This document shows, piece by piece, positions 8,877 through 10,986 of a stretch of DNA of 20,754 bases (position 1 is its first letter; the number at the start of each line of letters is the position of its first letter). Both the position numbers and the translations under genes were made by a program. Below the pieces are notes generated by a model. That model ran no database searches. It was not told the origin of the DNA and was given only the letters and a program-made list of their open reading frames with translations. Origin of the DNA: a virus; IMG/VR virus record IMGVR_UViG_3300046791_000175, positions 1 through 20,754 of that record; one strand, written 5' to 3'.

Positions 8877-8974
8877 GGTTCACCGAGCAGGACGCCGAGT
8901 CCGTCGAGACAGCACGGGAACGGCTTCGACGTCTGAGCCCGGAGCCTCTTCCATTGTTCGGGAGGTCGGCGTGA
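8873..8974 (+). CDS. Candidate 33-aa ORF coupled to rusA
   Basis: GTG at 8873 overlaps the preceding stop (GTGA), and the TGA at 8972-8974 overlaps the GTG of the resolvase gene. The product reads MRFTEQDAESVETARERLRR then LSPEPLPLFGRSA, a short amphipathic helix with a Pro-rich end. The SD of the next gene (GGGAGG) is inside its last codons. Coupling on both sides supports translation. No function can be stated. Confidence 0.42.
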   Translation: MRFTEQDAESVETARERLRRLSPEPLPLFGRSA

Positions 8975-9423
8975 TCCGCCTCGCCTTCGTCGTCCTCGGC
9001 GAGCCCGTAGGCAAGGGTCGGCCCCGCTTCAACGGCACGACCGGACGCGCCTACACACCGAAAGCGACCAGCGAATACGAGCACGACATCTGCGACCGGG
9101 CCGCCTACGCGGCGGTCAGTCAGCAATGGCCGCGTGCCTTCGACGCGCCCTGTCGGGTCGTGATCGATGCCATCTTTCAGCGGCCGAAGAACCGCTACCG
9201 GAAGGCTGACCCGGTGGGCCGCATGCCGCGCGAAAGCGGCCGTATCGACTGCGACAACTGCGGAAAGATCGTGCTCGATGCGCTCCAGAAGGCGGGCGTG
9301 TTCCGAAACGACTCGTGTGTTGTCGACCTTCACGTCCGGCTCTGGTGGGCAGCGGTCGACGAGACGCCATGCGTGGAGATCGAGGTCACCACGCTCGAGG
9401 CTGAGGGCGAGGTGGCGGCATGA
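8971..9423 (+). CDS. rusA: RusA-type Holliday junction resolvase, 150 aa
   Basis: RusA enzymes cut four-way DNA junctions formed in phage recombination and replication. The N-terminus has the family signature GEPVGKGRPRFNG (residues 10-22), then AYTPKATSEYEHDI. The acidic catalytic core is R-I-D93-C-D95-N-C-G-K99-I-V-L-D103 with a further acidic position in FRNDSCVVDL (D114, D119). Length is slightly above the 120 aa of the E. coli protein. GTG at 8971 follows GGGAGG and overlaps the previous stop. The stop overlaps the replication gene's ATG as ATGA. Confidence 0.88.
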   Translation: MIRLAFVVLGEPVGKGRPRFNGTTGRAYTPKATSEYEHDICDRAAYAAVSQQWPRAFDAPCRVVIDAIFQRPKNRYRKADPVGRMPRESGRIDCDNCGKIVLDALQKAGVFRNDSCVVDLHVRLWWAAVDETPCVEIEVTTLEAEGEVAA

Positions 9424-10433
9424 GCGGCTGGTTCGCCGCCGACGCTGGCACATGGGAGGTCGTAGTCGAGCAGATGCAGGCACACGGCCCGCTGTCGGAG
9501 GAGATGGCCGGGCTCGACCTCCGGCACTTCGAGAACCTTGTACGGGCAGGGGCGCGCCCCTTCCCGTCTCGTCGCGAGCTCCAGAAGCGATGGGGCTGGA
9601 CCGAGCGCGAAGTGCGTACCGTGCTTTGCCGAGACGACTGGCACGATCCCAACCATCCCGTGTCGAGGGAGGAGCTCCTTGACCGGAAGGGGGGTCGCTT
9701 CAGTGTGACGAAACGTCCCGGTGAGGGTCCCGGTGACCGTCCAGCCAATGTCCCGGTGACCGTCCCGGTGGAGAACGGACCAACCTACACAATCGACGTA
9801 TCCACGTCCAGCCAATGTCCCGGTGACCGTCCCGGTGAGGGTCCCGGTGACCGTCCACACGCGCGTTCTATACTAGAACCAGAGAACCAAGGAACCAGGA
9901 ACCAGCTAGAGCGCACGCGCGCGGACTCGCTCCCGGCACAGGCTCGACCCCGAACCTTGGTCTCGTCCATCTGGGAAGCCATCCAACGGCTCTACGTCGA
10001 CTCGGGACACGGCAACGTCGCCCTCGACCTCGACAGCTCGGGCCGACGCCAAGCCCTGGATGCCTGCCTTCGGAAGCTCCACAGGGATCCCCTCGTGGCT
10101 GCTCGAGCGCTCATCAAGGTGCTCGCATTCTGGCTCTACGGGCCGAATGACTGGTACCGCGAACACCTCCACGGATCCGAGCTCATCGCCGCCCTCCTGA
10201 GGCCCACGAAGATCGGGGAGAACCACACGAAAGCCGAGTCTTGGGACTGGGATGGCGAGGTCCATGAACGAGCTGGACCGACCACGGGTGCCCGCAAGGA
10301 ATCCAATTTCGCTCGGCAGCTTCGTGAACTTGAACGTGAGTGGGAGGAACCAAGTGGCATCTCGGCAGGGGATCTCGAAGGCCCTGAAGCATCTCCGAGC
10401 CTCAGGTTGCTACAACAGCCACCTCGAGGATGA
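9420..10433 (+). CDS. Replication initiator-like protein carrying in-gene iterons, 337 aa
   Basis: ATG at 9420 is fixed by a 4-nt overlap with rusA. Residues about 30-85 hold a winged-helix-like segment (FPSRRELQKRWGWTEREVRT, VLCRDDWHDP), as in phage replication initiators or organisers. Residues about 99-144 are a Gly/Pro/Val linker encoded by DNA iterons. The C-terminal part, residues about 180-280, is helical (SSIWEAIQRLYVDSG, RQALDACLRKLHRDPLVAAR, ALIKVLAFWLYGPNDWYREH, SELIAALLRPTKI). This layout, an initiator whose own gene contains the origin repeats, is that of lambda O and its analogues. The assignment is from architecture and context, not from a family match. Confidence 0.6.
   Translation: MSGWFAADAGTWEVVVEQMQAHGPLSEEMAGLDLRHFENLVRAGARPFPSRRELQKRWGWTEREVRTVLCRDDWHDPNHPVSREELLDRKGGRFSVTKRPGEGPGDRPANVPVTVPVENGPTYTIDVSTSSQCPGDRPGEGPGDRPHARSILEPENQGTRNQLERTRADSLPAQARPRTLVSSIWEAIQRLYVDSGHGNVALDLDSSGRRQALDACLRKLHRDPLVAARALIKVLAFWLYGPNDWYREHLHGSELIAALLRPTKIGENHTKAESWDWDGEVHERAGPTTGARKESNFARQLRELEREWEEPSGISAGDLEGPEASPSLRLLQQPPRG
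9715..9849 (+). repeat. Seven GTCCCGGTG iterons, candidate phage replication origin
   Basis: Exact copies of GTCCCGGTG start at 9715, 9727, 9750, 9762, 9817, 9829 and 9841, at 12-bp steps within clusters. A 32-bp block (9739-9770) is repeated exactly at 9806-9837, shifted by 67 nt and so read in another frame. Several copies contain the palindrome CGGTGACCG. The adjacent 9866-9904 stretch is richer in A/T and holds four AACCA repeats. Confidence 0.78.
9866..9904 (+). repeat. A-rich AACCA repeat tract beside the iterons (candidate unwinding element)
   Basis: AACCA occurs at 9877-9881, 9885-9889, 9893-9897 and 9900-9904, steps of 8, 8 and 7 nt. It is preceded by the small palindrome TTCTATACTAGAA (9866-9878). 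The tract is clearly poorer in G+C than its surroundings. Phage origins often place such a tract next to initiator iterons as the melting site. Confidence 0.5.
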
Positions 10434-10986
10434 GGGCTCCTTGCGCATCCTGATCGATGATTGGTTCTCGTCGTTCCTCGACTTGACCGATGCGCAACTG
10501 ACCCTCGCCTGTGCCCTCTGGCTCGAAGGCGAGGATGGCCGCAAGTGGCCCACCAAGTACGACCTCAGGGAGAGCATCAAGGTCGCCAACGCCCACACCA
10601 CCAAGGCCTTCGAGGGCTGCCCTGCATGCGACATGACCGGCTGGCGTGAGCTCATCCGGATCGACCCATCGGGCAAGCGGGAACGGCACGTAGCCCCCTG
10701 CTCCTGCCCCAAAGGCTACCACTTCAGCCACCCGCCACCCGTGCCAGCGAACTACACAGGGCCCAAGTGGCCACCCCCTGAGCCTTGGGACGTGGTGGTC
10801 CAGAGGTGGGAAGCCAAGCGCTATCAGGTACTCATCGCCTCCGAGGACGAGCCCCACTTCGACCTCGAGAGCCTCGATACCAGCGAGGCCACGAGGGACA
10901 GGCTCATCGAGGCGCGCAAGCACACGAAGGAGCTCGAGGCAATGGTGGCCAAGCTCGTAGACAAGTTCCGGATGGACGCCCCATGA
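10354..10986 (+). CDS. Putative helicase-loader-like zinc protein, 210 aa
   Basis: GTG at 10354 is chosen because GGGAGGAA (10342-10349) lies four nt upstream; the open frame extends to 10252 but deep inside the previous gene. An 80-nt overlap remains. Residues 30-80 (LRILIDDWFSSFLDLTDAQL, TLACALWLEGEDGRKWPTKY, DLRESIKVA) resemble the N-terminal helical domain of phage replisome organiser or helicase-loader proteins. A zinc motif follows, C89-x2-C92 and C116-x-C118 (CPACDMTGW ... CSCPKG). The C-terminus is a charged helix (EARKHTKELEAMVAKLVDKF). There is no Walker motif, so it is not a DnaC-type ATPase. Function is inferred from pattern and its place after the initiator. Confidence 0.5.
   Translation: MASRQGISKALKHLRASGCYNSHLEDEGSLRILIDDWFSSFLDLTDAQLTLACALWLEGEDGRKWPTKYDLRESIKVANAHTTKAFEGCPACDMTGWRELIRIDPSGKRERHVAPCSCPKGYHFSHPPPVPANYTGPKWPPPEPWDVVVQRWEAKRYQVLIASEDEPHFDLESLDTSEATRDRLIEARKHTKELEAMVAKLVDKFRMDAP

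Follow-up and report, generated by a model that had tools for sequence, protein, structure and literature searches.

Genomic context and domain organization of the 337-aa ORF

The window analysed here is the whole of virus record IMGVR_UViG_3300046791_000175 (20,754 bp), in which genes for an integrase, a RusA resolvase, a terminase and later functions follow one another in phage order. Directly downstream of the RusA gene, and joined to it by an ATG that overlaps the RusA stop codon (ATGA), lies an ORF of 337 codons with the following organization:

8971-9423, + strand: RusA Holliday-junction resolvase, directly upstream of the 337-aa ORF (Pfam PF05866, 2e-21)
9420-10433, + strand: 337-aa initiator-like ORF containing the putative origin (homologues identified by HTH motif)
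9444-9644, + strand: N-terminal winged-helix-like DNA-binding domain, residues ~9-75, with the motif PSRRELQKRWGWTEREVR (AlphaFold2 pLDDT ~90 or more; alignment with relatives)
9657-9950, + strand: predicted disordered linker, residues 80-177 (pLDDT <50), the coding DNA of which holds all of the putative origin elements
9957-10244, + strand: C-terminal helical domain, residues ~180-275 (predicted structure)

The protein was modelled by AlphaFold2 with 13 sequences, and its C-terminal helical domain was modelled better alone (pLDDT 81.6). Neither the whole-protein model nor the separate C-terminal model had a PDB match with E <1, and no fold match was strong enough to name a function for the C-terminal part. 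A likeness of this domain to lambda P (Z 5.4) was dropped because the better model, that of the domain alone, did not show it, and the best BFVD match, a ‘putative replication protein’ of Ralstonia phage RSK1 (E 0.02), was too weak for use. The 337-aa protein matched no family model above threshold in Pfam or PHROGs, and gave no match to Phage_rep_O or to the DUF1376 or DnaT domains at E 0.1 or E 1. By tblastn it matched neither any of 50,697 phage records at E 1 nor a plasmid, and protein searches of viral contigs with the 337-aa, 244-aa, RusA and terminase proteins found no relatives.

Elsewhere in the window, the downstream ORF at 10252-10986 (its start may be later) has a CPAC...CSC zinc-ribbon-like motif and no family match, and is a possible replication partner; a minus-strand ORF at 1281-2405 contains a 21-bp tandem repeat at 1570-1629.

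An array of short direct repeats in the linker-coding DNA

The DNA that encodes the linker contains a dense set of elements:

9715-9773, + strand: iteron block A, with GTCCCGGTG at 9715, 9727, 9750 and 9762 and the variant GTCCAGCCAAT at 9739
9774-9805, + strand: spacer between the blocks; last unit of A to first unit of B, 44 bp start-to-start
9806-9864, + strand: iteron block B, with the variant GTCCAGCCAAT at 9806, GTCCCGGTG at 9817, 9829 and 9841, and a final slot (9853) that merges into the junction box
9738-9770, + strand: 33-nt exact repeat, copy 1
9805-9837, + strand: second copy of that 33-nt repeat, offset from the first by 67 nt and read in a different codon phase
9855-9865, + strand: conserved junction box CCACACGCGCG (from comparison across lineages)
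9866-9910, + strand: putative DNA unwinding element, the weakest 45-bp duplex of the 20,754-nt record (nearest-neighbour stability, rank 1/20,710)
9876-9905, + strand: 7-8-bp repeats of the GAACCAG type
9914-9921, + strand: second CACGCGCG, on the far side of the weak element and the sole other + strand copy in the record

The original prediction described seven exact copies of the repeat at steps of about 12 bp inside an initiator-like gene. Exactly seven copies of GTCCCGGTG were confirmed in the window, all on the + strand and all within the 337-aa ORF (span 9715-9849). Four of the steps between them are indeed 12 bp, the others being 23 and 55 (in order 12, 23, 12, 55, 12, 12), with partial units in between that share the GTCC start (GTCCAGCCAAT at 9739 and 9806; a further partial unit, GTCCACACGCGC, lies at 9853). 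Once these are counted, the array resolves into two blocks of five units with steps of 12, 12, 11, 12 / 44 / 11, 12, 12, 12, an arrangement that the prediction lacked. The longer block that it reported as repeated 67 nt apart is identical in both copies and measures 33 nt rather than 32, and the same DNA is read in different frames, as had been stated (codon phases of the seven copies: 1, 1, 0, 0, 1, 1, 1).

Repetition of this degree exceeded what base composition or the encoded protein would give. Across 200 Markov resamplings of the window, no 9-mer occurred more than 3 times per 150 nt, compared with the 7 observed; across 2000 synonymous recodings of the linker, the maxima were 4 copies and a longest repeat of 29 nt (7 and 33 nt observed), and none of these protein-preserving recodings (0/2000) reproduced the GTCCCGGTG copies or the 33-nt repeat. 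The units, each 9-12 bp long, are asymmetric and repeat directly; no inverted repeat was reported within the array, and there is no clear switch in GC skew at the site. The DnaA boxes found near the array were two-mismatch sites (9767, 9798, 9851) and are not claimed. The exact double iteron GTCCCGGTGNNNGTCCCGGTG matched 44 viral contigs, none of which encodes relatives of the nine window proteins tested, and the match contexts inspected were mostly PVPV/GPGG low-complexity coding; judged from these matches, the GTCCCGGTG iteron itself is not shared.

Relatives carry different repeats at the same place

When the HTH motif of the 337-aa protein was written as degenerate DNA and searched for in viral contigs, four ORFs belonging to its domain family were found, and an alignment of them was used to add further members. 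This yielded ten diverged, non-redundant relatives (L050, L057, L058, L059, L060, L061, L063, L066, L067 and L069; L061, L063 and L066 form a close subgroup), all retrieved by the protein winged-helix motif PSRRxLxxRWGW only and not by their repeats. Among genome contigs, the strict HTH motif had 23 matches, none with an ORF resembling the initiator family.

All ten relatives possess direct repeats of 10-12 bp directly after the HTH domain. The repeat sequences differ among phages (GGGTCCCACTG, TCGCCCACTC, CTCGCCCAA, CGTCCCAGT, CCTCCCAA, CCGGACCCA), with a CCC[A/G] core common to most of them (not L050), while the steps stay at 10-12 bp, mostly exactly 11, and the copies occupy all three codon phases. 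In the window and seven relatives, out-of-frame 8-mer pairs outnumbered those in every synonymous recoding (0/2000 each). The observed value was reached by 3/2000 recodings for L061, 18/2000 for L066 and 66/2000 for L063, three genes that have only 3+3 degenerate repeat units; L066 and L063 are weak members, the latter not standing out clearly from its recoded sequences. In L057, L058 and L059, which are GC-rich, another two or three of the listed ORFs have equally high scores, and we tentatively take these to be that one stretch of repeats read in overlapping frames. The blocks lie 44 bp apart start-to-start in the window, L059 and L067, a distance of four 11-bp slots; the step is 43 bp in L060 and 56 bp in the L061/L063/L066 subgroup. 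The inter-block spacer of this last subgroup also holds a conserved AAGTAGTTGAAATCACTA-like stretch (a CAAGTACTTG palindrome in L063).

The family shows several links to replication genes. The order RusA-then-initiator recurs in L069, the L061 gene sits directly before a DnaB helicase gene (PF03796, 2.4e-86), and relatives weakly but concordantly match ‘replication initiation’ PHROGs (phrog_16167, E 0.003; for one relative, the O-like phrog_345, E 0.04). Neighbouring genes differ among relatives, and the array stays with the HTH gene.

A conserved box joins the array to a weak duplex

At its downstream end the array runs into a second element absent from the original prediction. In 5 of 8 lineages the 9-mer CCACACGCG is found no more than 60 nt from the last iteron; across 2000 resamplings, no 9-mer was shared in this way by more than 3. 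In three phages the last iteron slot is fused to the box (GTCCACACGCGC in the window, GGGTCCACACGC in L059 and TCGCCACACGCG in L067), while L069 has the form CCCACGCGCG; the box is absent from L060, L061 and L050. It is read in three codon phases and so encodes different peptides (PHAR, HTRV, STRA). L067 also has CGCGCGCG about 75 nt beyond its box. The open-access literature searched yielded nothing on such a box in phage origins, although it may be described elsewhere.

The weakest duplex of the record begins one base past the box, at 9866, a coincidence likewise new to this analysis. The original prediction placed an A-rich AACCA tract directly after the array; the tract is there, in the form of the GAACCAG-type 7-8-mers, and is A/C-rich rather than simply A-rich. 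At the corresponding place the stability rank is 1/8,794 in L058, 28/6,186 in L069, 50/10,202 in L067 and 62/10,208 in L059, and only 299/10,211 in L057; in L061 and L063 no weak element adjoins the array and the region is unremarkable (ranks 923 and 707), and L066 is not among the ranked members. In most family members the weak element is made of 6-8-bp repeats.

A probable replication origin nested in its initiator gene

Taken together, these features make it very probable that the segment 9715-9910 is a phage replication origin lying within the gene for its own initiator, the reading that the original prediction had put forward and that all of the evidence obtained here, which is of sequence, supports. 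The prediction had further held that selection must act on the DNA. The window by itself does not justify that conclusion, since a recent duplication out of frame would leave an identical picture; what sustains it is the relatives, whose repeats are unrelated in sequence, occupy the corresponding position and fall in every codon phase. The comparison of iterons in related phages that had been proposed found repeats in 10/10, different in sequence, with two weak members.

If slippage in a linker of low complexity had recently produced a tandem or segmental duplication, without any role for the DNA as such, the complete identity of the two 33-nt copies would be expected, as they would be young; linkers are often repetitive. 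Such an event would not lead the unrelated repeats of the relatives to keep 11-bp steps, two blocks and a place after the HTH, nor bring the box and the weak element next in register. Selection on the peptide cannot explain the repeats either, because steps of 10-11 bp rotate the reading frame. The duplication reading is already disfavoured, and we regard it as very improbable.

It is somewhat easier to imagine, though still unlikely, that the repeats are an operator array through which the 337-aa protein or another repressor regulates the operon, since a winged-helix protein beside its own cognate array also fits the logic of autoregulation. The array, however, lies about 300 bp inside the gene, 3' of the sequence coding for the DNA-binding domain, a conserved box and the record's weakest duplex come next, and the genes around it function in replication and recombination. 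ParB-like proteins and terminases also bind arrays of direct repeats, and the array here might in principle be a partition (centromere-like) or packaging (pac) site that happens to be in the 337-aa gene; yet no par genes were recognised among the window proteins tested, and in relatives the array keeps company with the HTH gene despite differing neighbours, leaving a site of this kind a scarcely credible explanation.

For the favoured origin, we propose that the N-terminal winged helix would bind the 11-12-bp direct iterons head-to-tail, at roughly one monomer per helical turn. Binding would span both blocks, which are set at the observed 44-bp step, and the conserved CCACACGCG box, which ends the array, may mark its boundary. 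Strain from the nucleoprotein array could then open the adjoining A/C-rich repeats at 9866-9910, where the duplex is weak, and the C-terminal helical domain, the presumed helicase-recruiting part, would bring in host or phage helicase machinery. An origin could sit inside the gene in this way because the segment encodes a predicted disordered linker tolerant of varied sequence; for the same reason, the constraint on the DNA would set the amino acids of the linker. The locus would then clearly illustrate how constraints on DNA and on protein can overlap, with the origin dictating the linker amino acids; the conserved box is a directly testable candidate origin element.

Occurrence of the box outside the PSRRxLxxRWGW family

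Viral contigs were also searched with a DNA-only pattern consisting of the box plus 7-mers. Four of its nine matches lie in initiator-type genes (L094, L095, L099 and L101), and the other five are read as chance. L099 and L101 are L059 and L069 found again and L094 is a close relative of L069, leaving the DUF1376/DnaT-type gene of L095 as the sole independent find, because L059 and L069 had helped to define the pattern. In 658 bacterial genomes (two classes) there were no matches, compared with 2 for a reversed control pattern. The Acetobacter phage phiAX1 also has the box ahead of short repeats in a DnaT-type gene, and several annotated initiators (F10, LESphi2, Marvin and dwieneke) do not have it. 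On this sequence comparison the box recurs outside the PSRRxLxxRWGW family and is not universal.

The L095 gene (10124-10894, - strand) has repeats spaced by about 22 bp, the CACGCGCG box and AGAACCA 7-mers, and a weak element of rank 3/12,250. In L015 (2197-3009, reverse complement), the linker DNA of a 271-aa ORF has AAAAAC-type repeats and then CGCACGCGCGCG, with the box on the opposite flank of the weak element; the protein is of a different kind. In Pseudanabaena phage Pam5 (L110:1440-1600), a short distance before an annotated gene, TGTGACCCC repeats give way to GGGAAAAGGAACC-type repeats and CACGCG. A gene that precedes dnaB in Saccharomonospora phage PIS 136 (L117:1226-1400) contains four in-frame 21-bp repeats (TACCCGGAATTCCG) and, after them, CAAGAACGTCTA repeats of 12 bp.

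One tentative extension, which we consider possible but would not expect to hold, is that an iteron array, a CACACGCGCG box and 6-8-bp weak repeats form a signature common to unrelated initiator families, a modular unwinding device whose box is kept whatever the reading frame. By analogy, such a signature, set in the coding sequence of both PSRRxLxxRWGW and DUF1376/DnaT types, might be comparable to the DnaA-box/GC/DnaA-trio system. The suggested sequence-only rule for phage origins in unannotated genomes would be out-of-frame short repeats after a winged helix, the CCACACGCG box and a weak element.

Comparison with known origins

The original prediction likened the locus to lambda O/ori. In lambda O, the DNA-binding part comes before, and the recruiting part after, a linker encoded by the origin. 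The lambda origin contains four iterons, each an inverted repeat of 19 bp to which O dimers bind (PMC5043065, PMC7466680); they lie in the O gene and are followed directly by an easily melted element (PMC5043065). The window shares, at the level of sequence, iterons within the initiator gene and a melting element directly downstream, a likeness that is functional only; it differs in having about ten asymmetric, non-palindromic direct repeats at 11-12-bp steps, in two blocks with a GC box, and in a protein that has no O-family Pfam match. SPP1 oriL consists of direct repeats within gene 38 (PMC6316719) and, in layout and by that description, gp38/oriL resembles the window in its direct repeats in the initiator gene and its AT-rich element. 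A second origin, oriR, is also present in SPP1.

Plasmid origins usually lie beside rather than inside the initiator gene and have longer iteron steps. Iteron plasmids (P1, F, RK2) combine helically phased direct repeats, initiator monomers and an adjoining AT-rich element (PMC5043065), and the window resembles this general kind of origin, at the sequence level, in having direct repeats close to helical phase beside an easily melted element. Basal unwinding at bacterial oriC uses DnaA-boxes, a GC-rich spacer and DnaA-trios (PMC8287927). The likeness to the window is of architecture only, with double-strand initiator sites, a short GC-rich gap and short opening repeats, whereas the window initiator has no detected DnaA-type domain and its repeats are of 6-8 nt rather than trinucleotides. 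The DUF1376/DnaT-type initiators of L095 and Acetobacter phage phiAX1 are alike in their N-terminal domain and repeat-bearing linker and, like the window, have the CACGCGCG box and then short repeats, but belong to a different protein family (L095 PF07120, 5e-11; the 337-aa protein is unmatched).

By analogy, the best reading is that the 337-aa system works like lambda O/ori or SPP1 gp38/oriL, and we assign it to neither. Origins within initiator genes are a kind already known, since lambda and SPP1 have them; what is new here is a protein family without a Pfam or PHROG model, asymmetric repeats of one helical turn, a two-block register and a junction box.
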